Positions 1 through 29,892 of a DNA stretch of 30,312 bases are shown here, piece after piece. Position 1 is the stretch's first letter; the number at the start of each line of letters is the position of its first letter. The position numbers and the translations under genes are program-made. The stretch comes from a virus, in IMG/VR virus record IMGVR_UViG_3300030104_006253, positions 1 through 30,312 of that record; one strand, 5' to 3'. The notes below the pieces were generated by a model that saw nothing but the letters and a program-made list of their open reading frames with translations, searched no databases and was not told the DNA's origin.

Positions 1-488
1 AGCATCTTGTTGACCATCTCAGCGTGGTGCTTGCCCATCTCTTCCTTCATGACTGAGCGAATGTCTCCCAATCCGTCATCTTTGTCAGCTAGGAAGATAG
101 CAGTCTCGGACATGTCGAACGTGTGTGCGACAGTCTTCGGCTTTGCTGCTACGTGCTGGAAGATAGGCCTTACAGTCTCAGGCAGTGTTGCGTTCTCAGC
201 AACTCCACCGTGTAGGACACCATCGTTGTTTGGCCTTGCTGTGATAACTCTCCAGCCGGACCTGTCCCATGGTCTCTTTGGTAGTATTGAGAAGGCGTTG
301 AACTCTTGGTTGAGTTGCGACCAGACCTTGCGACCATAAATCGCTTGGTATGTTCCACCTGTGGTTGACAGCATTGGGCTGTCAGCCTTGAGTAGCTCGC
401 TACCGGAGTAGGAGTAACCCATTGCGTTCCCGGCGCCATAGTAATAGCGCTCCATGTCTGTTATTGTTCGTACATAATTTCTTGCCAT
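1..488 (-). CDS. Major capsid protein (HK97-fold type), N-terminal 162 residues, cut by window edge
   Basis: The reading frame opens at the ATG at 488 (first residues MARNYVRTITDMERYYYGAG) and runs off the left edge, so only the N-terminal part is seen. A clear ribosome site, AAGGAG, lies about ten bases upstream. Visible segments include a stretch reading W-D-R-S-G-W-R-V-I-T-A-R-P near residue 75 and A-K-P-K-T-V-A-H-T-F-D-M-S-E near residue 120, a layout typical of major capsid proteins of HK97-like viruses. The position, directly downstream of the prohead protease in a portal-protease-capsid order, is the main argument. The family assignment is therefore by context plus general resemblance; no catalytic motif exists to confirm it. 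It is probably the most highly expressed gene of the window. Confidence 0.72.
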   Translation of the reverse strand, partial: MARNYVRTITDMERYYYGAGNAMGYSYSGSELLKADSPMLSTTGGTYQAIYGRKVWSQLNQEFNAFSILPKRPWDRSGWRVITARPNNDGVLHGGVAENATLPETVRPIFQHVAAKPKTVAHTFDMSETAIFLADKDDGLGDIRSVMKEEMGKHHAEMVNKM

Positions 489-525
489 ATTTTTCACTCT
501 CCTTTAATCCTCAAATCTCCAGTAC

Positions 526-2001
526 TCACTCGAACGTCTTTGACGCCAAGTGGTGTACTTCCTCCCATGACATTTGTGCTAGGTCTTCAGTCGAAGGGAC
601 GACCACTGATGGTCCGCTCTCTGACTTGCGAATTTGTGCGCCTTCTTCGGCGGGAGATGCTATTTCATCGATTCTTGCTCCAAGAGCCTCAATGGACTTC
701 TGGATGTCGGCTAGTGGGCTGCGAGCATCGAAAGCTGCTGCCTCTGCCTTTGCGATTTCGTTTCTCCTCTCTGCGTTGAACCTCTCAGCGAAGTGCTTCT
801 CTAAGTCAGACTTGAACTCCTGCTCCATTGCTGCGGCCTTGTAGACCTCGTAAGCGGACTCAACTTCTGCATCAGAGACAGTAGCTGCGGAGATGAAGTC
901 GGATTTCTCGACTTTTCCACCTGCACCGGTTGTAGCGGCGATTGCGTTAGTGGAAGGTGACCCTCCCTCTTGCACTCTGCCCTTTACCTGTCCTGTGTGC
1001 TGTGTGTACCCAGCGTCCCACTCCTCAGGTGTGGAACCTAGGTTGGCTTTCTCAAGGTCGTCAAAGTGAGCTCTTGCGGCTATTGTGTCTACTCCACCGC
1101 TCTTCAAGGTGTCTTCCATCCAGTTTAGGTAGCTTGAGGTGATTACGTCTGAGTACTCCTCAGACTTCTCGACATCCTCGGCTTCCCCGGATTTCTTGGC
1201 ATCGTCTCCCTTGCCGTACATCATCTTCTCTTCTTTGTCGTCCTTCTTCTCAGCCTTGTCCTTTTTCTTGTCCATGTGCTCTTTGAGGCCCGCTGGCATG
1301 CCTTTCTCCATGTCATCGAGTCTTCCCTCAAGGCGCGATAGAACATCGCCAAGTTGCTTCATCATTTCGTTGTCGTTTTCTGTTTCTGTCATTTCTGTCA
1401 CTTCCGTGTCTTCTTTTAGTATGCTGAATGTTGCTTCGGGGTTTATGCCTTTTTCGCAAATCGTTATTTCGTGGAGCTCCAGTTTGCTAATCTCTTGGTA
1501 GTCGCCTCTCTTCTGGTCTGATTTTCTGACCCTCTTGAAAGCCTGCCCACCGATACTGAATCCCCTGAGAACGCCCTTTCTGATTTCTGCTGAAACCTCT
1601 TTTGCCTTCTCGATGTCGTTTCTGAGTTGTACTACTACAAACATCCCGACATCATCGACTTCGCTTTTCCACAACCTCCCTTCGCTATCAGTGTAATTCG
1701 GTATTACGTCTCCTACTTGTATATTTGAGTGCGCAAGTTGAACGTTTCTATACGACGGATTCTGCATAAATTTGCTGAATGCGTCCTTCAATGCCTCCTT
1801 CGTTATTACGTCACCCTGCTTGTCAACTACTTCTACGCTCGCATATCCAGCCACAATGAGGTCGTTTCCGCCTTTGAGGACGACCAGAGGGTCGTCGTCG
1901 TGGTTGAAGAGCTGTCGACTTCCGAGCACACTATCAGCCACAACGTATTGCTTTACTACTTCAATGCTTTGGGAATGAAAACGCACATCTCTAAGAGTCA
2001 T
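526..2001 (-). CDS. Prohead (capsid maturation) protease with long C-terminal scaffold-like region
   Basis: This 491-residue protein should cleave capsid and scaffold proteins during head maturation. The first 200 residues look like the HK97-type (S78) prohead protease: V-A-G-Y-A-S-V-E-V-V-D-K-Q-G-D-V-I near residue 50, candidate catalytic His91 in Q-L-A-H-S-N, candidate Ser149 in R-G-F-S-I-G-G, and the closing L-H-E-I-T-I-C-E-K-G-I-N-P-E-A segment around 176-190. After this comes a charged, Lys/Glu-rich region (about 210-300) with coiled-coil character, likely a fused scaffold. I chose the ATG at 2001, which overlaps the end of the upstream giant gene by 11 bases; the same frame stays open to 2058, but that lies deeper in the neighbour. 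The extreme C-terminus (Q-M-S-W-E-E-V-H-H-L-A-S) is shared with another head-module protein (8218-8562). Confidence 0.85.
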   Translation of the reverse strand: MTLRDVRFHSQSIEVVKQYVVADSVLGSRQLFNHDDDPLVVLKGGNDLIVAGYASVEVVDKQGDVITKEALKDAFSKFMQNPSYRNVQLAHSNIQVGDVIPNYTDSEGRLWKSEVDDVGMFVVVQLRNDIEKAKEVSAEIRKGVLRGFSIGGQAFKRVRKSDQKRGDYQEISKLELHEITICEKGINPEATFSILKEDTEVTEMTETENDNEMMKQLGDVLSRLEGRLDDMEKGMPAGLKEHMDKKKDKAEKKDDKEEKMMYGKGDDAKKSGEAEDVEKSEEYSDVITSSYLNWMEDTLKSGGVDTIAARAHFDDLEKANLGSTPEEWDAGYTQHTGQVKGRVQEGGSPSTNAIAATTGAGGKVEKSDFISAATVSDAEVESAYEVYKAAAMEQEFKSDLEKHFAERFNAERRNEIAKAEAAAFDARSPLADIQKSIEALGARIDEIASPAEEGAQIRKSESGPSVVVPSTEDLAQMSWEEVHHLASKTFE

Positions 2002-5000
2002 TTTCGATAGACTGCTCTGATGTTTGTCTTCTTTTCTTATCCCTTCCCGGATAGTCATCGGGTTTCTCGGGGTCAGTCCCCGGACGTTTCTTCATATCAT
2101 AGTCAGGCATGCTCTGCTCGCCAATCAACGTAGTTGGGCCTCTAGGGCTCTCAGTCCCATCGCCTACATCTATTCCCAATCCCCTACCACCGCTCATGGG
2201 GTAGTGGCCTGCAAATCCCTTGTCTAGCTTGTCTAGCACCTTCTCAATCATTATGAGGGCCTTCATCGTGTCCTTGGGCTTGAGCAGTATGTTCTGGTCC
2301 TTCTTGGGTTTGAGGATTCCTACGCTCTGATGCTCTATCCTGCGGGCACGCTCGTCAGTCATGCCCTCGTCTGCCTCCTCCTCATCCCAGTCTGCACCAT
2401 CGGGCGTCTCGAGCTCCTCCTTCTTGAGGTAGGCGAATCCCCTCTGCCAGAAGGGCTCTAGGCTCTTGGCCAGCCTAACTGAGTAGTCTGACGAGGTGAC
2501 TCCTCCTATCGCCGCTATGGGGTTGGTTGGCCCCTCTTCGGTAATTTCGTACTTGACTATGTCCTCTGGCAGTCTCAGTATGAAGTGCTTGTCCTCTATC
2601 TCCATCGTGAATGGTATGTGGTAGAGTATGTCCTCCTTGGCTAGCATGACCCACTTGGGGTGCTTCTCCTCCCCCTTCATGTAAGTGGACTTGGCGTCCC
2701 TTATCAGTAGCATGTCGTTCTCCTTGCCTAGTGACTCCACTGCCTGTTTCAGCCCGACCTCGTCGGTGACCCTGATATCTGATGGGCTCGGTACGTGCAC
2801 TGGGTGGTAGCTGTCGAACTGCCCTCTGAGTATCTTGACCCTCTCACGGGTGGTTAGGTCGGTCACATCGTCCTTGTCGTACATCATTATGTCATTGATG
2901 AACAGCTCGCCATCGACCATAGTGGCATCCACCACGAAGTTCTTCTTGCACGACGAGCGTAGCGCCGACCTCAAATCGTCACTGGTGGACTGGTTCTCGC
3001 CCTTCTCGTTCTCTATGTAGATGTGATTGCCCTTCTTGCTGACCTTGCACCTCGTTCCCTCCCTGTGGACTGAGACTACCCACTCGCCAGTGAAGCCCCT
3101 GAGCTGTGACATGTCATCGAGCTCGAATATCCTGTGCATGGGCTCTATGAGGGGAATCTCCTTGGGTAGGTCGGCCTTATTCATTATGTTGTGGTCCTTC
3201 TGGTGAGGGAACTCACCAGTGCTATCGGGTGTGCCCATTGCGGACCCGCTCTGCACTGGCATGGAGTTCTGCATCATTGACTGGATGTGCTCGGTACTGT
3301 GGGTGTCGCTTAGGACCGCTTGTAGCGTAGACACGGGTACTGTGTTGTAGTCGACTGGTTGGGGGTTCATCCCAAGCACCATCTCAGAGCCGTCGTGCTC
3401 GAAGCCGAACTCGGCTGTCATCTCATGGCCCGTGTCTAGGGCGCCGTCGTTGATGACGTCTAGAGGCACTATGCCGCTTTGGCTGTTGATTGAGCGTATT
3501 GGGCTATCGTCGTACCCGCCTATCAGGCTTGCGGAAGATGTCGGCATCTCGGAGGTAATCTCCTCGGGAGCTATAGCTGGGTTGAAGGACATGATGTGGC
3601 TAGCTATGTCCTTGATGGGAAGGTGCCTCTTTCGGGTTTGCGAGCCCTTACCGGGAGGGTTCGGGTGAAGCAAGGGGCTTCCGTCTCTGGATACGATGCC
3701 CTTGCCATCCCCCTTCGTCTTGGCTTGCGGCGGTCGGTGAAGCTGTAGGCCATACGCATCCAGTTTAGCGGGTGTGCCCATCGCATTTCTACCAAACCAA
3801 GACATCGCGCTGTGTATGGGTATCCTCTGTACGAGGGTTTTGAGTTTGTTTTTCCTTTCTGGGTTGTTACTCCCCGTCGGCCAGTCCCTCTTGTCGTTGG
3901 CCAGAGCTATGTCCAAGGCGTCATGGACGCTGTCATGTCCCCTGACGTGAGTGAACATGTCCTTGTCCTCATCGTTCCAGTCATGGCCTATCCCAGCTAG
4001 CTTGCCGAACGACATGGCAATGACGTTTCCCCTGACGTCTGGGCTGTTCAACCAGTTGGATACGTATTCCTTGTGGGCCTCGTCGTTGGGTAGGCCCAAT
4101 ATCTCCAAGGCCTCGTCCACACCAGTGTCAGGGCCTATCGTGTGGTTGTCCATTATACTGGGTTGTTGCAGGTAGTTGGATATGAGGGCATGCATGTCTG
4201 AGGTGGTTTCCTGCTCCACACCCCTCCTGATGTCATGCCCGTAGGAGGTGAGGGAGTGGCCATCGTCTAGGTGCAATGAGCGCATCGCCGCTGATATCAG
4301 GGCATACGAGTTAGCTAGCCCTTTGGGGTTTTCCGGGTGGAATGCCAGTGGTATCTTTTCTAGCACTTTCGGTATCATTTGCTTGGCTCTCTGAATTACA
4401 GCTCTGTTATCGGATGATATCAGCTTCTGTAGGTTCTCCCTCGCACCGTGGCCCGAATATCCGCTGACAGCTCTATCTTCCTGCTCCCTCTGTATCTCCA
4501 TCAGGGATTTTATGTCCTCGATTATCTCCTCCTTGCCCTCGAAGGACAACCTCGGGTCATTGAGCTCGTCATAGAGGTTCTCTATCCTGTTCTCCAACGA
4601 CATTCCCATCAGTGGCATCTTAGTTTCAGGTGTGGAGGGCACGGTCGGTACCTCGCTCATGATATCACCCACGTTCATCCCTGATGGTAGCAGGTCCTCG
4701 GGGCTCTGGAGGAACTGCTTGAAGGTGTACGGTCTGGCTAATGCCTCCTCGGGCCTCTGCATCCTACCATTGAGAGCTATCATCATGTACGCCAGTGATG
4801 CGTTCCTCCTTACAGCCGCATCACCCCTGACTCTCCCCCTACCAGCGGAGGTCTGCGTGTACTGGTTGTCATGTGTGAGCTCACCCAAGCCATCATGAGC
4901 GAAATCGGTCGTCCTCTTGGGGTGTCTCTCCCTGTCTATCTGGAGAGAGGGGGGCATGCCGTCCCTGATTTGTCTGAAGACAGTGGGGCTTCTGGTGTAC

Positions 5001-14052: not shown

Positions 14053-16424
14053 AGCATCCCTCCGAAAGCGACCTTGACGACCTTCACGACAGAGTCGTCA
14101 TAGCCATAGGTTTTGGATATTCTGTGCCAGTCCCCCTTGCTGTGAAGTATGGTCCTGACATCCAAGGAGGTGAGTCCCATCATCTTGGCGATGTGGTTTA
14201 TGTCGTATACCGAGTCAGCGTTGAATGCGCTGTTAGGGACCTGCTTCATGATGGCACCATCGAGCCTAGCCTCCTCTAGCTGTAGTAGCTCTAGCACCCT
14301 AGCGACGTTGTCCGACTTTGCGAAGTCAACTAGTCTGGTCTGGTACGGGTCGCCCATCAACTGCCTGAACTGGCGTAGCCTAGCCTCCTGTTGGTCCTGT
14401 GGCACGTTAACCAGCGACTCGCGCTGAGGGTAGTACTCCCTGACCTGCTCCAAGGGAGCTTGACGGAACCTCGCTCTAGCTTGTTGCTGGCGACTGAGCC
14501 CCGGTGTCATGGGGTCGACTACAGTAGGTGACGGTCGCACTGCCACTCTTCCCGTATCGGGTTGAGATGGAGGCATCTGTGGAGGGGGTGTGGGTGGAGG
14601 CACCTGTGGAGAAGGCATCTGTGGAGGAGGTGTGGGTGGTGACGTCTCTCCAGTCACACTTGGGTGAAGGGGTGCCCCTGAAACCCCCTTGGGCGTGCCC
14701 GACATGCCAATATCACTCGTACTCTCACCGACTGGTGTTATGGGTTCCATCTGGTCGGAGTAAGGTATGTGGTCAGGGACCCCGAGTTGGGAGAGGTCCT
14801 CATGCGTGCCCCCCTGTATGACGTGGTCTATTATGGGTCTGATTTCCTTCATCTCCTCTTCGTTGGGTAGCTCCTTCAGCTCATGCCCGTAAGCCGTGGT
14901 ATGCAGGGCGAAGAGCTGATTCATGATGTTGGCTATTCTAGGTGCATCGGCCCTAGTTTCCGGGGTGTCATGGAGCGCGAGGCCAGCTTCCCTTACCTCT
15001 TCTGGAGTGGGCATGTCCTCAACGTGATTGATTCCCAAGTCACGTGCTAGGAGGGCATTGCTGAAGGAGTCCTTGGCTCTCTTATGATGAGCTTGGTCCT
15101 TGTTCCGTTGAAACTTCATGAAATTCTCTATCCTCTTGGAGTTGCCCATGAAGAGGTCCAATCCCCTGCCTTCGGTAGCATCATCCCCGTACCTCTGACC
15201 AAAGAAGTGAGTGAGGTTGCCAGAGGTATTGGCTCTTCTGGTTTTCTTCTTGTCCTCATCGAATGAGGGCATTCTGCTCTCGCCGTACACGTGGTTCAGA
15301 CTAGGGTATCTGGATAACTGCTCCCCTAGCTCCCTTATTCCCTCCTCGCTGGTGAAGTAGGACTTCAGCGGCTTCCCATTAATCTCTCCCTTTAGCCTCG
15401 ACACCATTCTCTTAGCTCCCTCGCTGTCGACTACTAGGTTGTTGGCTATCGCGTCCCTGTCATATCCCAGTGTCATGAGCATCTGGTGGACGAAGGAATC
15501 GACGAGGGCTTTTCTGGCATGCTTCCTACCCGTGTAGTCGGGAGCGGCATCGGCGTGAGGGAGGTGGTAGAGATTGGATATGTGACTGCCGACTCCCCAA
15601 GACGATATGTTCTGGAATGCCCTAGTGTCATCGAGCATACCCTCCAACCTGCGGATTGATAATGCATCTAGACCTGCTCCCGGTAACAGCTGCCCTGAGG
15701 GCACGCTGTTAGCACCGAACTTCATCCCTCCTTCCCCGTCTGGCTTCAAGTGCAGCCTGTGTGGCTTGATGTAGGGCTTCCTCACCCAACTGTGCTGTTG
15801 GGGGTTGGGATGTCCCGCCTCTGCCATTATCTGGCCCAGCTCGTTGTTGAAGGGTATTAGATAGGACTCTAGGAAAGTACCGAACATGTGCTTGTCATCG
15901 TGGCTGTTAGTTATTGTAGTGACTAGGCCGTGCTCGTTGCGTGTGGACATAGCATCCGTATCTAGGTCCCCGAGCCTTCCTAGGTTTATCTTCCTCCAAT
16001 CAATTGCATCGCTACCGGGAATCTTATCCTTGCGCCTGCTGTTATACAGGTCTATCGCTCTATCTACTATTACCTTGCCGGGCACGTTTATTCCCTGTTG
16101 TAGCATTGACTGGCCTACCGCTCTGATGAGGCCGTCTATGCCGTGCATGTGCTGCCCACCTGCTTCGTCGACGTAGACCTCCTCACCATGGGAGCCCCCA
16201 TCAGGCAGGTACTCTCCGGGATACACCTGTCCTACCCCCGGTATGCCAGAGACATGCTCCTCGAACCCGCCCGTGTGCGCGAAGGCAGGTGTGTCCTTCA
16301 CTCCGGGTGGCTTTATCGCCTCCACTGGGGGATGTCTTATCTTGTGAGGGGCGCCACCATGAATGACGTAGTTGGCATCGCCTTTGCGGAGCATCACCGC
16401 TTTGATGATGCTATACGTGTTCAA
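14049..16424 (-). CDS. Unknown 791-residue protein with proline-rich linker, TTG start
   Basis: It starts at a TTG overlapping the upstream TGA (TTGA junction). The N-terminal 500 residues are soluble and charged, with no motif I recognise; a His/Asp-rich style resembles the 1822-residue protein. Near residues 600-640 comes a Pro-rich linker made of repeated P-P-P-Q-M-P units, then a helical C-terminal domain ending in a basic segment (A-K-M-M-G-L-T-S-L-D-V-R-T-I-L) that may be a winged-helix or DNA-contacting region. It is probably structural or packaging-related, given its neighbours; the precise function is unknown. Confidence 0.75.
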   Translation of the reverse strand: MNTYSIIKAVMLRKGDANYVIHGGAPHKIRHPPVEAIKPPGVKDTPAFAHTGGFEEHVSGIPGVGQVYPGEYLPDGGSHGEEVYVDEAGGQHMHGIDGLIRAVGQSMLQQGINVPGKVIVDRAIDLYNSRRKDKIPGSDAIDWRKINLGRLGDLDTDAMSTRNEHGLVTTITNSHDDKHMFGTFLESYLIPFNNELGQIMAEAGHPNPQQHSWVRKPYIKPHRLHLKPDGEGGMKFGANSVPSGQLLPGAGLDALSIRRLEGMLDDTRAFQNISSWGVGSHISNLYHLPHADAAPDYTGRKHARKALVDSFVHQMLMTLGYDRDAIANNLVVDSEGAKRMVSRLKGEINGKPLKSYFTSEEGIRELGEQLSRYPSLNHVYGESRMPSFDEDKKKTRRANTSGNLTHFFGQRYGDDATEGRGLDLFMGNSKRIENFMKFQRNKDQAHHKRAKDSFSNALLARDLGINHVEDMPTPEEVREAGLALHDTPETRADAPRIANIMNQLFALHTTAYGHELKELPNEEEMKEIRPIIDHVIQGGTHEDLSQLGVPDHIPYSDQMEPITPVGESTSDIGMSGTPKGVSGAPLHPSVTGETSPPTPPPQMPSPQVPPPTPPPQMPPSQPDTGRVAVRPSPTVVDPMTPGLSRQQQARARFRQAPLEQVREYYPQRESLVNVPQDQQEARLRQFRQLMGDPYQTRLVDFAKSDNVARVLELLQLEEARLDGAIMKQVPNSAFNADSVYDINHIAKMMGLTSLDVRTILHSKGDWHRISKTYGYDDSVVKVVKVAFGGML

Positions 16425-18295
16425 GGGGTTCTGCCTCCCCTTGAGGTTAGGTGGTCAAGGGGATTCACGCCGAAGGTCCTCGGGTCGTTGTTCGCATCCT
16501 CAGTAGCACCCTCGGGTCGAGTAGTCTCCTTGGTCGGGGCGTTGTTGTGGTTGGGTAGGTTGCTAGCGACACCCACGTTCGCATCGCCCTTCCCCTTGTT
16601 CTTCTTGTCCTTGCGCTTGAGCGCCATTCTTGCCTCGTTGATTAGTTGTCTGAGCTCAGCCTTATCGTAGTAGGTGAAGCGTTTCTTCTGCAAGTCGCTT
16701 CCCTCCCCGATTTCCCCGGTCATGACCATTGATGGTCCGCCTTGCATGGATGCCGATGGCATTCTGGAGGGAGCGTACTGCGCTCCGCCTGCCATGCTCT
16801 GCCTAGCGTAGCCCGAGCTGTATTGGGGGGAAGGCATCGATGGCATCCTAGGGGCTCTTGGCATGGTTGGTCTCCTGACTCCTCTTGCTGGCATCATTCT
16901 AGGTCTGCTCGGTCTCCTGACTGCCGGTCTCCTAGCGAGTGCGGCCTGCCCAGCCAACTGCCTGAGTGCGCCTCCACCAGTGGGCCCCGCTCTGTATGAG
17001 CGAGCGCCGAACCTCTGTGGTATGGATGTCGGTGACCTAATGTTGCCGAGTCTTCTCTGAGCCTCCTGCTGGCCTAGGTACTGCCTGTACTTGCCCACGT
17101 CCTTGGACGTGGGTTGCTTGTTCTTACCGACCGTTCGGTGACCCATCTCCACAGCGAGGTGGGCCCTACCAAGACCAGTTCTCTTACCGCCCTTGATACC
17201 GCGCATCCTAGCTTTGGCTCTTCTATTGGTGGCACCTGATATATCGAATCCTCCGGGTGGCTTCTTGAACATCCCAGTGGATGGCCTCCACTTCTTCCTC
17301 TCCTCCTTCTTGGTCTTCCTGTCCTTCTTCTTGGACTTCTTGGATTTTAGTAGTTCAGACCAAGCATCATTTATGGGCTCGCTTTTCAAATCCTCTAGCA
17401 TTGAAGGGTCAAAGGAAGATTGTGCATTCTTCAATTTTAGTGCCTTTAACGTAGCCATGTACATGGCCATACTAGCCCTCATGACTTCTTCCTCAGTCAT
17501 ATCATGCACGCCACTTTGCTCTCTGTAGTCATTTACGAGAGCACGAATACCATTTGCTAGTTGAGGCGGGGAGCCCTGTGGAGAGCCACTAAGGACCATG
17601 TGGTCATGAAATGCCTTCAACTCATTTTCATAGTTACGTAGGTAGGGTTCCATCGATTCATAACCTCCTTCAGAAGTCATTAACTCATTGACGACATCAT
17701 CATTGTCATGTATAAGTGGATGGTTGGCATTGACGTGTAGAAACGGGAATCTATTTTGGTCGAAGGAGTGACCGAACATTCCTAACTCATCTATGTCCCC
17801 ATCCAAGTAGGATTGTAGGTGTTCGTCCTCATATGCTTTCAGTAATCGGAACGCCACTTTCATTGGCTCGCTTGAGAACTTGTAACCTTCAACTCCCTCG
17901 CCACCAGCGAAACCCGGACCCCTTGCCTGCATGGCTAGGCTAGTCAGAGCACCGAAGTTTCCGCTTGACCCGGTCTGTATAGATGGCTCCTTGACCCCGG
18001 CTCTGGAGTTGAACTTCTCCTCTTCCTCTTCGTTGTCAATGGATTCTAAGTCATTGGGCTTGATGGATAGGTGCTTGAGCCTCTTCATCTCATTTGCTCT
18101 TTTCTTTCGCTCCTTCTTCTTCTTGTCTGCTATCTGGTCCCTGTATCTGGGGTCCTCAGCGCCTGTGTACGTGGACTCGTCCTCGTTGTTAGCACGATAC
18201 ATGTGTGAAGACTCGCTACGAGGTGCGTACATCCTAGTGTCCGAACCCGTACCCATGCCCATGGTGCCAGATTTCTTGATTAGTATTCGACTCAG
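16421..18295 (-). CDS. Unknown 624-residue basic, low-complexity protein; probable CTG start
   Basis: An ATG at 18262 gives 613 residues, but I favour the in-frame CTG at 18295. It overlaps the previous TGA (CTGA), as the TTG starts nearby do, and it restores an N-terminus L-S-R-I-L-I-K-K that matches M-S-R-I-L-V-R-K of the protein at 13372-14052; the ATG has no ribosome site. Residues about 145-153 read M-K-V-A-F-R-L-L-K, an internal version of the tag found at the start of the accessory proteins. The middle is Lys/Arg-rich (K-K-S-K-K-S-K-K-K-D-R-K-T-K-K) and the C-terminal part Arg/Pro/Met-rich, suggesting nucleic-acid binding. An internal DNA-condensing or head core protein is possible. 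Confidence 0.7.
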   Translation of the reverse strand: MSRILIKKSGTMGMGTGSDTRMYAPRSESSHMYRANNEDESTYTGAEDPRYRDQIADKKKKERKKRANEMKRLKHLSIKPNDLESIDNEEEEEKFNSRAGVKEPSIQTGSSGNFGALTSLAMQARGPGFAGGEGVEGYKFSSEPMKVAFRLLKAYEDEHLQSYLDGDIDELGMFGHSFDQNRFPFLHVNANHPLIHDNDDVVNELMTSEGGYESMEPYLRNYENELKAFHDHMVLSGSPQGSPPQLANGIRALVNDYREQSGVHDMTEEEVMRASMAMYMATLKALKLKNAQSSFDPSMLEDLKSEPINDAWSELLKSKKSKKKDRKTKKEERKKWRPSTGMFKKPPGGFDISGATNRRAKARMRGIKGGKRTGLGRAHLAVEMGHRTVGKNKQPTSKDVGKYRQYLGQQEAQRRLGNIRSPTSIPQRFGARSYRAGPTGGGALRQLAGQAALARRPAVRRPSRPRMMPARGVRRPTMPRAPRMPSMPSPQYSSGYARQSMAGGAQYAPSRMPSASMQGGPSMVMTGEIGEGSDLQKKRFTYYDKAELRQLINEARMALKRKDKKNKGKGDANVGVASNLPNHNNAPTKETTRPEGATEDANNDPRTFGVNPLDHLTSRGGRTP

Positions 18296-23304: not shown

Positions 23305-23488
23305 ACACCATTTTGCGCAAATCCATCTTCATAATTTCGTTTGCCGCTTTTCTCTGAGCGTAGAGCAAGCTGTAGCAAGGACAGCGTGGAGGACTCATTG
23401 AGCATTTCATCACTCCCTGCTCCATGCACTTGCATGGGTTCTTCTTGTTACCACCGCAACAACAGCTATCTCGCTTTAGCTTGGCCAT
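23294..23488 (-). CDS. Cys-rich 64-residue protein, last gene of the small-protein cluster
   Basis: Started at the ATG at 23488, which overlaps the preceding TAA (TAATG). The protein begins M-A-K-L-K-R-D-S-C-C-C-G-G-N-K-K-N-P-C-K-C and continues with M-K-C-S and R-C-P-C, eight cysteines within the first 40 residues, followed by a basic helix. It is probably a metal-binding mini-protein. The family is not recognised. Confidence 0.65.
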   Translation of the reverse strand: MAKLKRDSCCCGGNKKNPCKCMEQGVMKCSMSPPRCPCYSLLYAQRKAANEIMKMDLRKMVFVR

Positions 23489-23844
23489 TAACAGTTCCAC
23501 CTCTTCAATGCCGCACCCTTCGGAGTTAGTTTGCCATCCTTGCTCGTAGGACCCTTACTACCACTCATGCGAGCGCAGAAGGATTTTCTTCTTTTTGCTC
23601 TTTTGCTTCCGGGCTTGAGTTTGGATGGCTTTGTCGTGACCGGGGGTTTGAGGTTCGCACCGGTCTCCCTCTTGAACTTAGCACGACCGGCGGCGTTGAG
23701 GCCACCCTTCTTGTGATGCCTCTTTGGGTTGTAGCCATGAAAAGGCTTGGACTTCTTCTTGGCCTTCTCGAAGTAGCCTTCCAAGAGAGCCATAGACGCC
23801 TGTTGCATGGGTGAGCAGCAATCACACGTGTCGTAGTCACTCAT
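23488..23844 (-). CDS. DUF6321-like basic protein, 118 residues
   Basis: The ATG overlaps the upstream stop (ATGA). After an N-terminal Cys cluster (C-D-C-C-S-P) and a basic stretch, the segment G-G-L-N-A-A-G-R-A-K-F-K-R-E-T-G-A-N-L-K followed by P-P-V-T, then R-R-K-S-F-C-A-R-M-S-G, matches my memory of the DUF6321 family in marine phages. The function of that family is unknown; it is strongly basic and likely binds nucleic acid. The end, A-A-L-K-R-W-N-C, is also typical. Confidence 0.75.
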   Translation of the reverse strand: MSDYDTCDCCSPMQQASMALLEGYFEKAKKKSKPFHGYNPKRHHKKGGLNAAGRAKFKRETGANLKPPVTTKPSKLKPGSKRAKRRKSFCARMSGSKGPTSKDGKLTPKGAALKRWNC

Positions 23845-24149
23845 ATCACTGCCACCATCTTAACGATTGTCGGTTTCCCACCAACACCCTGCTTCTTTGC
23901 CCTCTTTCTTTTTGTTGCGGCCTGTTTCTGTCCACTTGACATCGAACCAGAAGTCTTCGGGGTCTTCGATGAGACCTTCACTGAGGGCCTGCACTTCGGA
24001 TAGCCTTTCGAGGACGTCTTCGCTTTGCTCCTCCCACATGGTGGGTGCTTGCCGTCCTTCCCCCTTCTCGATACGTCCACCCACTTCTCCTTGAACCAGC
24101 GATTCAGGTTCTTCACCACTAATGTATCGTGGCAGGTACACCGGGTCAT
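23841..24149 (-). CDS. DUF5872-like basic zinc-knuckle protein, 102 residues
   Basis: The ATG at 24149 forms an ATGA overlap with the stop of the upstream 57-residue gene; the frame is open further but would run across that gene. The segments L-N-R-W-F-K-E-K-W-V-D-V-S-R, P-P-C-G-R-S-K-A and G-Y-P-K-C-R-P are the hallmark of DUF5872 proteins found in phages and environmental viruses; the Cys pairs could bind zinc. The C-terminal half is Lys/Ser-rich (Q-K-Q-A-A-T-K-R-K-R-A-K-K). The function is unknown, probably DNA or RNA binding. Confidence 0.75.
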   Translation of the reverse strand: MTRCTCHDTLVVKNLNRWFKEKWVDVSRRGKDGKHPPCGRSKAKTSSKGYPKCRPSVKVSSKTPKTSGSMSSGQKQAATKRKRAKKQGVGGKPTIVKMVAVI

Positions 24150-24319
24150 TTCTTCTTCCCCTTCTTTCGGAACTTTCCTCGACAGTACTGTACGGCCCAT
24201 CCGTTAGCGTAAGCGGAGGGGTAGACCTTGAACTTGCGCTTGGCTGCCGCCTTCCCCTCCGGACAGAGTTTCTTCCAAACCGTATCCATCCCAACACAGT
24301 GCCCACACTCACAGCCCAT
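24146..24319 (-). CDS. Small basic Cys protein, 57 residues (viral WKKLCPxGKAAAKRKFKVYPSAYAN type)
   Basis: Runs from the ATG at 24319 to the TGA at 24146, overlapping both neighbours (TGATG and ATGA). The product has C-E-C-G-H-C at the start, then K-L-C-P-E-G-K-A-A-A-K-R-K-F-K-V-Y-P-S-A and A-N-G-W-A-V-Q-Y-C-R-G-K. This is a recurrent small domain in marine viral genomes, often next to or fused with DUF5872-like segments. The role is unknown; nucleic-acid binding is likely from charge. Confidence 0.75.
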   Translation of the reverse strand: MGCECGHCVGMDTVWKKLCPEGKAAAKRKFKVYPSAYANGWAVQYCRGKFRKKGKKK

Positions 24320-24600
24320 CAGTTCCTCACTCTCCGAAGGGTGCCTCTGTTTTTGAAATGTCTTGCTCTATTGGAGTGCTCGCCCTCCAAAGTGAGCTTT
24401 CCTCCTTGGGTGTGACTCACATCCATGTGGTCCCCTGAGCCGTATATCCCCCTTCTCCTCCTCTCGGCGTGGAGGTCGCGTTGGTACTTTCTCCTCTCAG
24501 GGGTCTTCTCGTACCTCTTGTCATACTCCAGCTTGCGCCTCATGGCCTCTGGCGACTTGCGCTCCTTGAGCAACTGGAAGGCCGGGTCAATCGGTCTCAC
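24319..24600 (-). CDS. Tagged HNH-like/DNA-binding small protein, 93 residues, GTG start
   Basis: The frame is open to an ATG at 24621, but the GTG at 24600 overlaps the previous TGA (GTGA), has GGTGG just upstream, and yields an N-terminus M-R-P-I-D-P-A-F-Q-L-L-K that aligns residue for residue with M-N-P-F-D-E-A-W-S-L-L-K of another gene here. The C-terminal part, G-S-G-D-H-M-D-V-S-H-T-Q-G-G-K then N-R-A-R-H-F-K-N-R, resembles a small viral family with D-x-D-H and N-R motifs that looks like a reduced HNH fold. Active-site completeness is uncertain because the usual D-H pair is spread (D-V-S-H). Confidence 0.72.
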   Translation of the reverse strand: MRPIDPAFQLLKERKSPEAMRRKLEYDKRYEKTPERRKYQRDLHAERRRRGIYGSGDHMDVSHTQGGKLTLEGEHSNRARHFKNRGTLRRVRN

Positions 24601-25310
24601 ATGTCCACCAACCGTTGGCAAGCCTCACAGAAGTTAGGGTTACCAACGGCCTTGGGGTTCTTCATGCACATATTACAATGCATCTCATCCATTATCCTAT
24701 GGAAATCCTGTGGAGCGGCTATCTGCTTTAGCAGTCTGAAAGCTATGTCCATCGGCTTACCAGTGCGAATTTGACTACTCGTTCGACCCATGTTGGGATT
24801 TTCTGGGTCTATATCGAATCTAATGTCGGTTGGTCTTGCTAGTCTTCCCCTCTCACTCTCTTTCAATGGGGGTGGAAGTTGGCCGAATTGTCTGGGTGTG
24901 CCTGTGAACTTAGGTGGGTTTGCCGCCAGTGCATCCAATTTGGCCTGATGCGTCCCAAACTGCTCTGGAGTAAGGTCAGAGTGCAAATTGGACATTCGCG
25001 TCCCCCTGACACCCATTGTGTTTTGAGAGCTGACTGGGGGTCGCTCGGTATACCTCGCAGCATCCATGTCATCTTGGTCATACGCATCCAACTCTCCCAG
25101 CTTCCGAGCAAAGCCAGCCATTCTCTTGGGCCCTATGTTTCGCATAGAGATGTCCCTTGGCTCAGGTAGAGGCTGATGCCTCATTGTCTCGGCCTTGGCA
25201 ACGCCATCCTTCTTCTTGCCCTTCTTCTTTGGGCTCTTGACGCCAATCATGATGACCATGCCCGGCTTAGCGGTTCCTGCGCGTGGGTCGTAGTCCGCTT
25301 TGTCCTTCAT
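24597..25310 (-). CDS. Unknown 237-residue protein with internal tag and C-terminal zinc ribbon
   Basis: The ATG overlaps the upstream stop (ATGA). The N-terminus is Lys-rich (K-S-P-K-K-K-G-K-K-K), the middle Pro/Arg-rich and likely disordered. Residues 187-195 read M-D-I-A-F-R-L-L-K, matching the accessory N-terminal tag; immediately after comes a zinc ribbon, C-N-M-C at 212-215 and C-E-A-C at 228-231. So the tag here stands before a small C-terminal domain instead of at the protein start, as if a tagged gene had been fused behind a disordered extension. The function is unknown. Confidence 0.72.
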   Translation of the reverse strand: MKDKADYDPRAGTAKPGMVIMIGVKSPKKKGKKKDGVAKAETMRHQPLPEPRDISMRNIGPKRMAGFARKLGELDAYDQDDMDAARYTERPPVSSQNTMGVRGTRMSNLHSDLTPEQFGTHQAKLDALAANPPKFTGTPRQFGQLPPPLKESERGRLARPTDIRFDIDPENPNMGRTSSQIRTGKPMDIAFRLLKQIAAPQDFHRIMDEMHCNMCMKNPKAVGNPNFCEACQRLVDM

Positions 25311-25576
25311 TGCTCACCGCCCCCATTCATGAAAGAGTGGAAGAACTCGGGGTGGTTCTCCTTGTAGTAGCGTATGACATCGGCATCCTCCATGTGGTCC
25401 TGAACCTTGTCCCTGAGCTTCTGGGCCTTGCTCTTCTTCTTTCGAGCGTCATTGCGAGTCTTCATCTTCTGATTGAGCGCCTCCTCCATGTAGCTGGGGA
25501 GGTCGTGATTCATCGCAGCCTGCATACTGCCAGACATTTTGAGGACCGACCAAGCGCTCTCGAAAGCATCCCGCAT
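25307..25576 (-). CDS. Tagged small basic helical protein, 89 residues
   Basis: Begins M-R-D-A-F-E-S-A-W-S-V-L-K, one of the tagged proteins. The remainder is helical, with a Lys/Arg-rich centre (R-K-K-K-S-K-A-Q-K-L-R-D-K) and an aromatic C-terminal part (Y-Y-K-E-N-H-P-E-F-F-H-S-F). It is the first gene of the small basic-protein operon and lies head-to-head with the plus-strand gene at 25639, 62 bases away. The start ATG at 25576 has GGTAGT a few bases upstream. No known family. Confidence 0.75.
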   Translation of the reverse strand: MRDAFESAWSVLKMSGSMQAAMNHDLPSYMEEALNQKMKTRNDARKKKSKAQKLRDKVQDHMEDADVIRYYKENHPEFFHSFMNGGGEQ

Positions 25577-25638
25577 GCAACTACCGTACGGGCCTAGGAG
25601 TGCGATATGTCTAATATGTTACGCATGATGGGCGTATT
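25577..25638. promoter_or_regulatory. Divergent promoter region between the minus- and plus-strand genes
   Basis: The 62-base gap separates two head-to-head genes. TAATAT at 25612-25617 lies 22-27 bases before the plus-strand GTG, the distance expected of an archaeal TATA box for a leaderless transcript. The same AT-rich patch read on the minus strand (ATATTA) is 35-40 bases before the other start. This is inference from spacing only. Confidence 0.4.
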
Positions 25639-26340
25639 GTGTCGCCGGGCATAGAGAGTACCAACTCCTCTTCCTTTACGGTACCGGCTGTAACATCTTA
25701 TCGTTCCCCCGGCGGCACACCCCCAGTGCTTGTTAGAAAATTCATAAACCCCAAAAATCTAGTGGATTTGGGCGCTATAGCACTAGCCCCATTGACAGGC
25801 GGTGCCAGTGCTCTAGGCCTAGGGGCACTCAGGGGAGCTCAAGCCTTGAGGGGAGCTAGCAAGGTTGGAGTGGCAAGGGGAGCAGCAAAGGAGGCAAGTG
25901 AGGCCGCTGCTTCCAAGCAAGCCGTGAAACCTAAAAACGCAATTGCAGAAGCACAAGCAAAATTGAGAATGGGAGCGACGGGTTCTACTGCAAATATGGA
26001 CCAAATGGCTGAGTTAAGAAACAGAGCGGCAAATCCAGTTCCCGATGTTAAACCGGAAGACATAGCTGCGGCTGCTGAGCACAATGCGAAGCGACTCCAA
26101 GAAATCAATGAGACCACTCAAGCGGCAGCAGAAGCTGATAAGAACCTGCAAGAGCTACAATCACAACAGAAGGAGAGGCAGAAGACTGCGGCAGCCACTG
26201 GTTTAGTGGGTATACAGTCCTCAATGCAAGCCGCTAGCACCAACAGAGAGAAGCAACAAGCCGAGATGGAGCGCATCGAGAGGCTAGCCGAAGAGGGAAG
26301 GGCTAAAGCCAGCACCGGCTCGAAGATAGCCGTAACCTGA
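25639..26340 (+). CDS. Unknown Ala-rich coiled-coil protein, 233 residues, only large plus-strand gene
   Basis: GTG start with no evident ribosome site but a TATA-like element at leaderless distance. Residues 35-66 form a hydrophobic Gly/Ala/Leu stretch (G-A-I-A-L-A-P-L-T-G-G-A-S-A-L-G-L-G), perhaps membrane-active. From residue 70 on it is Ala/Glu/Lys/Gln-rich helix with long coiled-coil segments (M-E-R-I-E-R-L-A-E-E-G-R-A-K-A). It is real rather than a shadow: nothing convincing is encoded on the other strand and the next small gene is coupled to it. It might be a minor virion protein or membrane-interacting factor; the function is unknown. Confidence 0.65.
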   Translation: MSPGIESTNSSSFTVPAVTSYRSPGGTPPVLVRKFINPKNLVDLGAIALAPLTGGASALGLGALRGAQALRGASKVGVARGAAKEASEAAASKQAVKPKNAIAEAQAKLRMGATGSTANMDQMAELRNRAANPVPDVKPEDIAAAAEHNAKRLQEINETTQAAAEADKNLQELQSQQKERQKTAAATGLVGIQSSMQAASTNREKQQAEMERIERLAEEGRAKASTGSKIAVT

Positions 26341-26453
26341 TGATATCTAAAAGCGCCCTATGCATGGTCAAACGCACCTTGCGTAACATAGCCGTCGAGC
26401 TGATTGTCAGCCTGTGCCTCGTAGTCTTCGTGCTATCGTCGATTATGGGCTAG
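26340..26453 (+). CDS. 37-residue single-pass membrane peptide
   Basis: The ATG at 26340 overlaps the preceding TGA (TGATG). The peptide has a basic start (M-V-K-R-T-L-R-N) and one hydrophobic segment, I-A-V-E-L-I-V-S-L-C-L-V-V-F-V-L-S-S-I-M, ending in G and TAG. The stop shares the CTAG tetramer with the stop of the convergent lyase gene. Coupling and topology support a real small gene; holin-like or regulatory roles are only guesses. Confidence 0.55.
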   Translation: MISKSALCMVKRTLRNIAVELIVSLCLVVFVLSSIMG

Positions 26454-27301
26454 AAACCCAGCTTCGCATCCACGAACTTGGACACGGGCTTGAGGTCGTC
26501 CAAGCTGATGCCCGAGTCTAGGTTCTCCCTCTCGCCCCATGCCACCAGCTCCTCGGTCGCTAGGTTGCCACCCGAGCCGGGTATGAACGGGCACCCGCCT
26601 AGGCCGTTGATGCTGCTGTCGAACTGCCTGATGCCAGCATCGAAGGCGGCACTGATGTTGTCGTACATCCTGTTCCTGCGTGGCCCGTGGTGCAGGTGGA
26701 GGGCTATGTCAGCAGTCACGCTCGTCTTGGATATCTCCCTCATCATCCTGTTTATCCTCATGGGGTTGGCCCTACCCGTGGTGTCGGAGAGCACTATCGT
26801 CGAGCCTAGGCTATCAGCCCATGAGAGGGCCCTTCTCATCGCCTCGCTGGGTATCTCACCAGTGCCCGGACAGCCGAATGCGGTGGATATGTACACCCTG
26901 ATATCGGACTTGTCAACCTTATGCAGGGCACTGACGTACTCGCTGAAGATGAAGTTGAGCGTCCTGCCGTGGTTGTTGATGTTGAAGTAGTCGGATGGTG
27001 AGAAGAAGACGTTGAACTTGCTCACTCCCACCGCTTTCGCCCTCTCCACGCCCTTCGCGTTCGGGACTAGCATGCCCAGCGTGACGTCAGGCTCTAGGTA
27101 GGACACCTGCGAGTACACCTTCCCGCTGTCAGCCATGTTGGGGACCTTATCGGGACTGACCATCGCACCGACCTCCACGTTGCGTATGCCACACTGGGCG
27201 AGCCTCTCAATCATCTCGACCTTGCTGGCAGTGGGCATTATGGTGTCCGCGCTCTGCAAACCGTCCCGTGGGCCTACCTCGTAGATGGAGAAGTCGGTCA
27301 T
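26450..27301 (-). CDS. Hydroxymethylglutaryl-CoA lyase-like enzyme
   Basis: A 283-residue full-length member of the HMGL-like TIM-barrel family; HMG-CoA lyase splits HMG-CoA into acetyl-CoA and acetoacetate, the last step of leucine breakdown. Signatures: Y-E-V-G-P-R-D-G-L-Q at 7-16 with catalytic Arg12/Asp13, F-G-C-P at 142-145, metal-binding H202-x-H204, and G-L-G-G-C-P-F at 233-239 with the loop Cys237 and metal ligand Asn246 in G-N-L-A-T-E-E, nine residues later as in the human enzyme. One difference is H-L-H-H where most have H-x-H-D. The start overlaps the previous stop (TAATG), so it belongs to the tagged-gene operon, but it lacks the tag. A related aldol-cleaving substrate (for example another 3-hydroxyacyl-CoA) is possible. 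Confidence 0.88.
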   Translation of the reverse strand: MTDFSIYEVGPRDGLQSADTIMPTASKVEMIERLAQCGIRNVEVGAMVSPDKVPNMADSGKVYSQVSYLEPDVTLGMLVPNAKGVERAKAVGVSKFNVFFSPSDYFNINNHGRTLNFIFSEYVSALHKVDKSDIRVYISTAFGCPGTGEIPSEAMRRALSWADSLGSTIVLSDTTGRANPMRINRMMREISKTSVTADIALHLHHGPRRNRMYDNISAAFDAGIRQFDSSINGLGGCPFIPGSGGNLATEELVAWGERENLDSGISLDDLKPVSKFVDAKLGF

Positions 27302-27876
27302 TAGTCATCACCAAATCGTCTTCTTAGCCTTTGATTACGTCTGAAAGACCTAATATCGTTTACTGCTAACTCCCTCTCCCTCTCCCTTTCAGACTCTCTA
27401 TTCATCATCTGCTCTTTCTCATCTTGGCTCCTAGGCCAATGACCCTCCTTCTCGTATCGTCCCCAAAGTCCCTTTCCACCTCTTGACCTATCATCCGATG
27501 GCACGATTACTGCACCTTCTCCCTCTTGGTCACGGATATTCGCAACCATATCATACAAAGCAGAGGCCATGCCCTTCCCACGATGAGATGGTTTAGTCCC
27601 GGCACCCCAAGCAAAATCCCTATCTCCGCCAGTCATCACAAGATGGGACAGGGGATTGTCAGACAAGACAGAGCCTTGGGTTAATTCTGGTCTTTGTCCC
27701 GGCTCGTAAATACCGCTCTCATACCCCAGCCCGAAGTCACTAGCAACCATGGGATAGACCTCTCCAGTATCAGGATGAATAAAGTTGGCATTGTATTTCT
27801 TCTCTCCCACTTGTTCTATTGAATCGTAATCAAGTGGCATCTTGAGTAAGGCCCATGCTTCATCGAACGCGGTCAT
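27301..27876 (-). CDS. Tagged GNAT-family acetyltransferase
   Basis: Begins M-T-A-F-D-E-A-W-A-L-L-K-M-P, then a 175-residue body. The segment A-W-G-A-G-T-K-P-S-H-R-G-K-G-M-A-S-A-L-Y has the R-x-x-G-x-A/G acetyl-CoA-binding loop of GNAT enzymes, followed by I-V-P-S-D-D and G-L-W-G-R-Y, both usual in phage-type GNATs. The C-terminus is Arg/Glu-rich. It should transfer an acetyl group to a protein or small-molecule amine; the target is unknown. The ATG overlaps the upstream stop (ATGA). If the tag is a virion-packaging signal, this enzyme would enter the host at infection. Confidence 0.82.
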   Translation of the reverse strand: MTAFDEAWALLKMPLDYDSIEQVGEKKYNANFIHPDTGEVYPMVASDFGLGYESGIYEPGQRPELTQGSVLSDNPLSHLVMTGGDRDFAWGAGTKPSHRGKGMASALYDMVANIRDQEGEGAVIVPSDDRSRGGKGLWGRYEKEGHWPRSQDEKEQMMNRESERERERELAVNDIRSFRRNQRLRRRFGDD

Positions 27877-28583
27877 TCGTCATACCCCCAGTCATCACGC
27901 AGCACATCGGGTATGTAACTGCCCCTAGTGTACCTCAGCTCCCTGCCTTGGTCGTCAATCGGTATCGCCTCGTCCAAGTACCTTGGCTCTATCGGCTCGA
28001 AGCTGATGGTTGGCTGTGTCGCCGTCACTTCCTCAGGAGCGAAGTCCAAGTCGATGAATCGCCTTCCGGGAGGCACTATCCTAGAACCAACGACAGCCAC
28101 GTTATCCGCGTTCCTTCCAGTCTCTATGTCGAAGTCCTCCGATGGCACCGTCATGAACCTGTCACCGAAGAAACGAGCGCTCAGCGCTGGGTGGCTCATG
28201 CTGGAGTAAGGGTCATCACTCCTCAACCTCGCTAGGGCACTCGACTTGGGGCCAAACCCCCTCTTGTGCATGAAAGTCCAAAGCGCCTTGTCCCCTGTGG
28301 GGTATTCCATTGAGTCAGTCAGGAATTGGTAATACTCATCACGAGAAATCCGCCCTTCGTCCGCAGCGCGCCTCATCTCCCTCTTCTCACGCTCTGACAC
28401 ATCGGGAATGCCCTTCATCCTCCATCGACTGGCATCCCTAGGGAAAAGCCCCTCAGAGAGCACCTCGTCGAGGAACTTCCTCGGTATTGCGCGATAAGCC
28501 TTGAAGGGCCTAGACCCCCTACCGCCTTGCGGGTCAAACTCGACTGCCTTCAGCAGAGACCACGCTTCGTCGAAGGGGTTCAT
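27873..28583 (-). CDS. Tagged 236-residue protein of unknown function, ART-like resemblance weak
   Basis: Begins M-N-P-F-D-E-A-W-S-L-L-K. The body opens with Y-R-A-I-P-R-K-F-L-D-E-V-L-S-E-G-L-F-P, a layout (Y-R, then helix, then G-L-F-P) seen in some ADP-ribosyltransferase-fold proteins, and later has K-A-L-W-T-F and V-G-S-R-I-V-P-P-G. I cannot point to a full catalytic triad, so the fold suggestion is weak. The start overlaps the upstream stop (ATGA). The DNA encoding the tag is nearly identical to that of the next tagged gene (see findings). Confidence 0.75.
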   Translation of the reverse strand: MNPFDEAWSLLKAVEFDPQGGRGSRPFKAYRAIPRKFLDEVLSEGLFPRDASRWRMKGIPDVSEREKREMRRAADEGRISRDEYYQFLTDSMEYPTGDKALWTFMHKRGFGPKSSALARLRSDDPYSSMSHPALSARFFGDRFMTVPSEDFDIETGRNADNVAVVGSRIVPPGRRFIDLDFAPEEVTATQPTISFEPIEPRYLDEAIPIDDQGRELRYTRGSYIPDVLRDDWGYDE

Positions 28584-29167
28584 CCGTGAGTCCCCCTCAT
28601 GACTTTGATTGGCAAGGGCGTATCACCGTGACCACGAGCGAAGAGTTCAGCCATTCTATGTCTCCCCTCATGGTATATACCGGGGTTAAAATCGGGAAAA
28701 ACATACGGCATACCGAACTTGATGTCCTCTCCTGCCTCCGCCCTGTCCATCAAATCTTGATAGAAAGTATTCCCTACCTCTCTTGGGGATTTTTGTTCAA
28801 CAGGGAACTCCTCAGCAAGATGCTCATTTGACCGTTCTGCTCTTTCTTCTAATGCTAGATACTCAAACGGGTCCATATCTTTATCGAAAGGAGGTTTGTA
28901 AAACGGCCCTTGTCTGCGCTGCGTAGTTTCACCATAAATAGCACCCTTTGGGTCGCCCGTAGTCATTTTTCCATATTCACCGGGTGTCATATGCTGAATC
29001 TCTCCTTGTCCTCTACTTGGGTCAGCGGGAACATATCCATACACATTCTCCTGTGACATCCAATGGGGGTCATCTTCACCTTGTGTGACGAAATTTATTC
29101 CGGGGATACCTGTTTCGTATATAGGCATCTTCAGCAGAGACCACGCTTGGTCGAAAGCATCACTCAC
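28580..29167 (-). CDS. Tagged ParB-like (EGRHR-type) protein
   Basis: Begins M-S-D-A-F-D-Q-A-W-S-L-L-K-M-P, then a polar 120-residue region and a C-terminal segment G-I-Y-H-E-G-R-H-R-M-A-E-L-F-A-R-G-H-G, followed by T-P-L-P-I-K-V. The E-G-R-H-R motif with a following helix and a P-(L/V)-x-(V/I) strand is the core of ParB-like nuclease/CTPase-type small domains found in many viral proteins. Activity, whether nuclease or nucleotide binding, cannot be told. It is coupled to the next gene by an ATGA overlap. Confidence 0.75.
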   Translation of the reverse strand: MSDAFDQAWSLLKMPIYETGIPGINFVTQGEDDPHWMSQENVYGYVPADPSRGQGEIQHMTPGEYGKMTTGDPKGAIYGETTQRRQGPFYKPPFDKDMDPFEYLALEERAERSNEHLAEEFPVEQKSPREVGNTFYQDLMDRAEAGEDIKFGMPYVFPDFNPGIYHEGRHRMAELFARGHGDTPLPIKVMRGTHG

Positions 29168-29190
29168 GATGGGTAGGAGGCCGACTGTCG

Positions 29191-29209
29191 TTATCTGCTT
29201 TGCTCAGAA
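29191..29209. repeat. 19-bp direct repeat, copy 2
   Basis: Identical to 29578-29596. It lies in the 52-base gap between the second and third tagged genes, 3' of the second gene's stop, and is therefore non-coding here. It is likely the relic of a deleted or replaced gene that shared its end with the first tagged gene. Confidence 0.85.
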
Positions 29210-29219
29210 CAAGAAAAAA

Positions 29220-29555
29220 TTATTCTGGGAGTTCATCATACTCCGGAGGGTCCTGATGGGGCTCCATCAATGTGTTTAAGACAGCGTCCCAATTTACCTC
29301 AGCGCCACTTCTGTGTATTGGGTTCCCTTCAATGTATTCATTAAATTTGTCATATGCCTCATCGTCTCTATTTATCCTCTCATACATGTCACTAAGCATA
29401 TGGTTAGAGTTACCTCCCGTGAGATACATTCCCTCTTCAGCCTCATGGCCCATCACATGACGAAACATCTCACGTATCATCGATTCCTCATCAGGGGTTC
29501 TCATTGTCCGCTCCTGTTTGAGCACGGACCAAGCCTCGTCGAACGCCCCAATCAC
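29220..29555 (-). CDS. Tagged 111-residue unknown protein, GTG start
   Basis: The open frame extends to 29687, but that would run through the previous gene. The GTG at 29555 gives the tag M-I-G-A-F-D-E-A-W-S-V-L-K exactly at the N-terminus, and the 22 bases before it match (18 of 22) those before the next tagged gene at 29892. The body is acidic and helical (E-S-M-I-R-E-M-F-R-H-V-M-G-H-E-A-E-E-G) with no recognised motif. A stop at 29220 is followed by a T-rich stretch on the minus strand and a copy of a 19-base repeat. Confidence 0.75.
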   Translation of the reverse strand: MIGAFDEAWSVLKQERTMRTPDEESMIREMFRHVMGHEAEEGMYLTGGNSNHMLSDMYERINRDDEAYDKFNEYIEGNPIHRSGAEVNWDAVLNTLMEPHQDPPEYDELPE

Positions 29556-29577
29556 GCTCGTCCGAGGGGGGTTGAGG

Positions 29578-29596
29578 TTATCTGCTTTGCTCAGAA
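29578..29596. repeat. 19-bp direct repeat, copy 1 (other copy 29191-29209)
   Basis: TTATCTGCTTTGCTCAGAA occurs here and, identically, at 29191-29209. On the coding strand this copy encodes the last residues (S-E-Q-S-R, stop) of the first tagged gene; the other lies in the gap after the second tagged gene, as a remnant of the same gene end. It indicates duplication or recombination at gene boundaries. Confidence 0.85.
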
Positions 29597-29892
29597 AGTT
29601 CGGGGTCAGCTGCGGTCTGCCTTCTGTTAAGACGCCTTCTAAGAGAGTCTTCAAGCTCCCTGATGTAGGACTGGTCATTACGAGCATCGCCTATGAACTC
29701 GTTCAGGGTCTTGGGACCCGGTAGGTTGACTGGAGGCAGGTTCTCAATGCCCCTCCTCGAAGACTCCCTCAGATTCGGGTTTCGTACAAGAGGGAGCAAA
29801 CGCTCGTTGTAGGGGTCGACTATGGTCTCGTACCCCTCGCTTGTCTGATAGTATTTGAGTATGGACCAAGCCTTGTCAAACGCTCCAGCCAT
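29578..29892 (-). CDS. Tagged 104-residue unknown protein, first gene of the accessory operon
   Basis: I start it at the ATG at 29892, which puts M-A-G-A-F-D-K-A-W-S-I-L-K at the N-terminus; the frame is open up to 29967, but that adds 25 residues read through the leader shared with the other tagged gene. The body is polar and Arg/Asn-rich, with a coiled-coil-like C-terminal region (I-R-E-L-E-D-S-L-R-R-R-L-N-R-R), ending S-E-Q-S-R. No known family. It follows the AT-rich promoter-like region at 29931-29953 and so heads the tagged-gene operon. Confidence 0.72.
   Translation of the reverse strand: MAGAFDKAWSILKYYQTSEGYETIVDPYNERLLPLVRNPNLRESSRRGIENLPPVNLPGPKTLNEFIGDARNDQSYIRELEDSLRRRLNRRQTAADPELSEQSR

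Follow-up and report, generated by a model that had tools for sequence, protein, structure and literature searches.

Why do neighbouring genes that encode otherwise dissimilar proteins begin with the same short peptide? The question was raised by the window, a whole virus record of 30,312 bases in which the minus strand carries most genes. A first-pass annotation had listed seven minus-strand proteins sharing a motif near their starts, and we found every motif at its claimed place: AFDKAWSILK (gene starting at 29892, ATG), AFDEAWSVLK (29555, GTG), AFDQAWSLLK (29167, GTG), PFDEAWSLLK (28583, ATG), AFDEAWALLK (27876, ATG), AFESAWSVLK (25576, ATG) and the weak PIDPAFQLLK (24600, GTG). The consensus of this tag was [AP]-F-[DE]-x-A-W-x-[LV]-[LV]-K, located right after Met and one or two further residues. 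Of the N-terminal copies, six were clear and one was weak, and in six ORFs the tag lay two to three residues past the start. When a weight matrix of the tag was applied at the same threshold to shuffled frames of the window, zero sites were detected. The seventh copy (24600) lacks F and W and scored below the weight-matrix threshold, and therefore would not count as a tag by itself; it was backed by its relatives. The tagged genes and the head genes discussed below are as follows.

29578..29892, minus strand: tagged protein, 104 residues (MAGAFDKAWSILK...), tag codons 29883-29854
29220..29555, minus strand: tagged protein, 111 residues, GTG start (MIGAFDEAWSVLK...), tag 29546-29517
28580..29167, minus strand: tagged ParB-like protein, 195 residues (MSDAFDQAWSLLK...), tag 29158-29129
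27873..28583, minus strand: tagged protein, 236 residues (MNPFDEAWSLLK...), tag 28577-28548
27301..27876, minus strand: tagged GNAT-type acetyltransferase, 191 residues (MTAFDEAWALLK...), tag 27870-27841
25307..25576, minus strand: tagged basic helical protein, 89 residues (MRDAFESAWSVLK...), tag 25567-25538
24597..25310, minus strand: ORF of 237 residues, internal tag TGKPMDIAFRLLK (24755-24726) before a C-terminal module
24319..24600, minus strand: weakly tagged module, GTG start (MRPIDPAFQLLK...), phrog_6437
16421..18262, minus strand: structural-module protein, 613 residues, two internal tags, EPMKVAFRLLK (17869-17837) and EPINDAWSELLK (17380-17345)
526..2058, minus strand: S78 prohead protease (Pfam PF04586, 6e-10; PHROG head maturation protease)
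3..497, minus strand: major capsid protein (MCP), cut by the window end (PHROG major head protein, 1e-23)

Some neighbouring tagged genes overlapped by four bases (28580/28583 and 27873/27876) in an operon-like manner. The body of the protein at 29578..29892 had no Pfam or PHROG match. In the ParB-like protein an HEGRHRM motif was read by eye, and nine tagged homologues were found. The protein at 27873..28583, aligned with five tagged homologues, looks ADP-ribosyltransferase-like by motif only. The GNAT-type protein matched GNAT structures in a profile search, and Foldseek with its AlphaFold2 model gave moderate GNAT matches.

Untagged genes were also present in and around the array. An HMGL-like aldolase gene (26450-27301; Pfam, 3e-29) lies amid the tagged genes and is a possible auxiliary metabolic gene. 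An ORF of 233 residues (25639-26340) is on the plus strand, opposite to every neighbour, and had no convincing family match in Pfam or PHROG. Between the tagged and the structural genes, positions 23488-24319 encode three small basic proteins, one DUF5872-like and two others, which resemble modules at the C-terminal ends of larger PHROG families; in relatives they occur as fusions or carry a tag. Within the structural module, an ORF of 1822 residues (1991-7459) shows, towards its C-terminus, weak similarity to an ATP-dependent DNA ligase domain. The long C-terminal part of the protease ORF (526..2058) is probably a scaffold. A C-terminal motif is common to this ORF (591-544, TEDLAQMSWEEVHHLA) and to the head-region ORF 8218-8562 (8298-8251, NEQIHEMTWDEIHDMA), and the proteases of relatives likewise match the latter ORF at its C-terminal motif, which is perhaps a scaffold-type capsid-binding tail.

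To which viruses does the tag belong? Among 2.9 million viral contigs, exact AFDxAWxLLK DNA was found in 72 stretches, a record often containing several of them. The terminase of the window virus was encoded in 41 of 50 tag-bearing records, nearly all at 44-84% identity and in two clades; the remaining records checked were mostly fragments or single chance matches. Other viral records, among them L083, L090, L129 and L142, had single matches, mostly away from a start, and were without the group's TerL, ATPase or portal; we attribute these to chance. A scan of 257 Gb of cellular genomes gave 17 scattered AFDxAWxLLK matches, all bacterial and none archaeal, and of the six that were read in an open frame by regular expression all but one lay far from the start. 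A host-derived motif is thus unsupported by the cellular scan. Further, we scanned 70 virus records picked solely by their MCP with the tag DNA pattern and a reversed control. The pattern gave 96 matches in 37 of the 70 records and the reversed control gave none, which rules out a chance origin. All 96 matches were co-oriented with the MCP gene. N-terminal tags located with the weight matrix in twelve records were on the MCP strand in 109 of 110 cases, the one exception being opposite. DNA polymerase B, where found in relatives, was opposite to the MCP/TerL strand (11/11). The tag arrays mostly adjoin the structural module, and a second, smaller group lies elsewhere in two relatives (G038 and G044).

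The MCP had its best named matches in HVTV-1, HCTV-1 and HCTV-5 (36-37%), and a PDB sequence search with it returned zero matches. Related records reached 115 kb (80-115 kb), the window itself being a 30 kb fragment. Magrovirales, which are related to Druskaviridae, have genomes of 90-110 kb in which one strand carries the morphogenesis module and the other the replication module (PMC12999244). The opposite strands of MCP/TerL and PolB in the relatives, the record size and an MCP nearest to Druskaviridae are features shared with this order, and by them the virus group fits Magrovirales. The putative host group is Poseidoniales. These viruses are attributed to abundant archaea of the surface ocean and are known from metagenomes only. 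A literature search that included magrovirus work, with partial coverage of the key magrovirus papers, found no report of the motif.

The tag also bears on where these genes start. The first-pass annotation had let it decide three start codons, and the chosen starts fit: among relatives, a start codon stood 3-4 codons ahead of F in 242 of 263 matches. SD-like sequence preceded 215 of 307 tagged starts versus 306 of 1959 internal ATGs. All of the N-terminal copies defined by regular expression (253/253) ended in K, and conservation stopped sharply after this residue.

We then asked what follows the tag. The relatives that share the terminase encoded 309 distinct tagged proteins, which fell into 136 body groups, with no similarity between groups detected by BLAST. 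When 96 group representatives were aligned, essentially the tag columns alone were conserved, and identity was 0.61-0.72 in the tag versus 0.15-0.26 in the body. Several groups were populous, for instance the ADP-ribosyltransferases (ART, n = 30) and the GNAT proteins (n = 25, including that of the window). The folds and families comprised ART (KptA/DarT-like), GNAT, D12 methyltransferase, ParB-like, Gp88, zinc ribbon and DUF5872. The ART body gave a profile match to RNA 2'-phosphotransferase and DarT, and its AlphaFold2 model matched KptA/Tpt1 and DarT1. In the ART and GNAT models the tag was a short low-confidence helix (mean pLDDT 53-57) before a confident body. The ParB-like and ART bodies had zero matches in the phage collection. 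DUF5872-like and 23488-type proteins, untagged in the window, were tagged in the relatives G038/G040 and G043/G063. Thus, the bodies are unrelated, as had been claimed from the window, and the pattern extends over several folds instead of being limited to one domain family.

The claim that the tag is placed strictly at the N-terminus was, in contrast, wrong: internal and near-C-terminal copies occur, up to five per polypeptide. The internal copies of the window, which the first-pass annotation had missed, are PMDIAFRLLK in the ORF of 237 residues and the two in the structural-module protein at 16421..18262, both of which are largely conserved in clade-1 relatives. A variant, [SG]-E-P-M-D-I-A-[FMWY]-[QR]-L-L-K, was found between modules and close to C-termini; one ORF of 976 residues (G012) has four variant copies and one degenerate N-terminal copy. 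The phrog_6437 module has its own tagged gene in the window, and in G004, G007, G012 and G024 it forms an internal domain that follows a tag. The relative G038 also encodes a fused protein of 486 residues (G038:82228; L233, about 2228 onward, plus strand), which joins a DUF5872-type basic module, an HExxH stretch (HEYGHE) and a degenerate tag (KKSFEAAWDSITK). The tag is therefore a position-tolerant module tag, and because internal and C-terminal copies exist, it is not necessarily a propeptide that is removed from the N-terminus.

Is the tag nevertheless cleaved? The prohead protease that the first-pass annotation had noted is borne out as an S78-type enzyme by the Pfam and PHROG matches listed above. 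Alignments revealed a conserved NPEATFSILK (1443-1414) closing its protease domain, followed by ED, and an invariant SGSELLK (407-387) in the MCP, followed by ADSP. With a slash after K, [ED]LLK/[AS]D in the MCP and [IL]LK/[EMQ]D in the protease are conserved in both clades. Because the MCP (SELLK/AD) and the protease (SILK/ED) bear similar conserved sites, a cut after LLK is suspected in the tag. The residue after the tag was mostly A or M, both of them enriched there (A, 0.31 versus 0.063; M, 0.21 versus 0.038), and these are the residues found after K in the MCP and the clade-2 proteases. In HVTV-1 the aligned MCP position reads MSK/AD and the comparable place in the protease VSK/AD; among the 27 HVTV-1 genes examined, SKAD strings occurred twice, in the protease and the MCP (genes 119 and 120; L258, 55000-102319), and from sequence SKAD is a candidate maturation site of that virus. 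The 47 kb examined of HVTV-1, the nearest named relative examined, contained no tag. The MCP site is without the FDxAW half. Further, an NPxA...K ending of the protease domain is common in the S78 family, and the likeness of the protease end to the tag may therefore be incidental. From the resemblance to the MCP and protease sites, we give slightly less than even chances to the tag being cut after LLK by the S78 protease.

We consider it somewhat probable that magrovirus-like archaeal viruses use the tag as a signal for virion loading, resembling in its action the capsid-targeting sequence (CTS) of T4. The core of the earlier reading, a shared sorting signal on unrelated bodies in a prohead-protease virus, is well supported by the comparison of genomes, with 136 groups, the late strand and effector-like folds; strict N-terminal placement has to be dropped from it. 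From its sequence, the tag would form a short amphipathic helix, opened by an N-terminal capping box (T/S/N, A/P, F, D/E), and would turn one face (F1, A4/W5 and L8) towards a groove of the capsid protein, the scaffold/protease or the portal. Late in infection it would bring various enzymes, as well as basic proteins, into the prohead; the cargo would then travel in the particle and enter the next host along with the DNA. The S78 protease may also use the C-terminal half of the tag, [LI]LK, as a cut site, in which case the tag would be removed and multi-tag polyproteins split inside the head. The bodies (ART, GNAT, Gp88 and D12 methyltransferase) are effector-like, and host-modifying enzymes made from the late strand suggest carriage to the next cell, as they would otherwise be hard to explain. 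A binding partner in the head, packaging and injection of the tagged proteins are, taken together, moderately likely.

Other explanations can account for parts of these results. If all tagged proteins were a single fast-evolving paralogous family, the large ART and GNAT groups would be expected, but we reject this exceedingly improbable reading because the folds and Pfam families after the tag are distinct (ART, GNAT, D12 methyltransferase, Gp88 and DUF5872). Genes 29892 and 29555 share a repeat of a 75-nt leader plus tag (77%), and the leucine codons of the tag are skewed (Leu7 TTG, Leu8 CTC); repeated leaders and skewed codons suggest that tags spread partly through copying of 5'-end DNA. 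The similarity could even be that of a DNA cassette, a 5' leader with first codons recombined before new genes for expression, with no role of the protein. We regard this stronger form as very unlikely, since the tag codons vary widely at synonymous positions without loss of F, A, W and K, and since internal and C-terminal copies (PMDIAFQLLK) retain similar residues far from starts, which argues that selection acts on the peptide.

Alternatively, the tag could be mainly a prohead-protease site or polyprotein joint, late proteins being cut wherever A[WF]xLLK occurs, with the loading information elsewhere. The sharp end of conservation after K, the single tag per module in multi-module ORFs and the LLK-like sites of the MCP and protease agree with this. 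However, most copies lie at most 3-4 residues from the start, where a cut would release just a 12-residue peptide, and the strict F, D/E and W exceed the needs of the MCP site; we therefore judge it unlikely. A docking role outside the virion is about equally unlikely: here late proteins would be bound, within the same infection, to a partner such as a host factor, a membrane, the virus factory or a chaperone, for instance in lysis or host shut-off. An amphipathic capped helix would be typical of docking motifs, but the tags are associated with the structural module, which includes a protein that is itself tagged (16421..18262), and host-modifying enzymes made only late could hardly benefit the infection cycle that produced them. 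Loading into the virion accordingly remains our preferred reading.

Several bacteriophage systems are comparable. Alt of T4 is an ADP-ribosyltransferase, as are many tagged bodies here. The T4 CTS is a short N-terminal peptide (10-20 residues) on the internal proteins IPI-III and Alt, in a system with a prohead protease (PMC5694885). The tag is likewise an N-terminal peptide on unrelated proteins of a prohead-protease virus. It differs from the CTS in its sequence, in having more than 100 body groups versus a handful in T4, in occurring also internally, C-terminally and in multiple copies, and in belonging to archaeal viruses, for which packaging is what we infer. The T4 cut motif L/I-x-E is absent at the tag end, which is [LV][LV]K with a possible cut after [LI]LK. 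In P1, the N-terminal 30 residues of DarB, an anti-restriction cargo, are enough to carry a reporter into the capsid (PMC9024508); that signal was mapped by DarB truncation, whereas the tag is a strict motif common to many proteins. In SPN3US and phiKZ, the prohead protease removes propeptides of head-internal ejection proteins (PMC5694885); unlike the tag, several of these exceed 100 residues, and the cuts follow A-x-E type motifs.

The most extensive form of the loading reading is a modular injected-effector system, in which a bipartite helix, with FDxAW for docking and LLK as protease site, loads an open-ended and rapidly exchanged arsenal. We hold this to be a serious possibility, a little short of an even one. 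If true, each genome would supply as many as a dozen enzymes or more for loading, with tandem-tagged polyproteins split in the head, and the breadth of effectors would be comparable to that of polymorphic-toxin or secretion-system effector sets. One readable tag would then point, from sequence alone, to proteins likely to be borne by the particle, and hundreds of unknown genes would become candidate injected effectors. If the loading reading is right, an archaeal virus would possess a large protein-delivery system that operates through a short, position-tolerant loading peptide.
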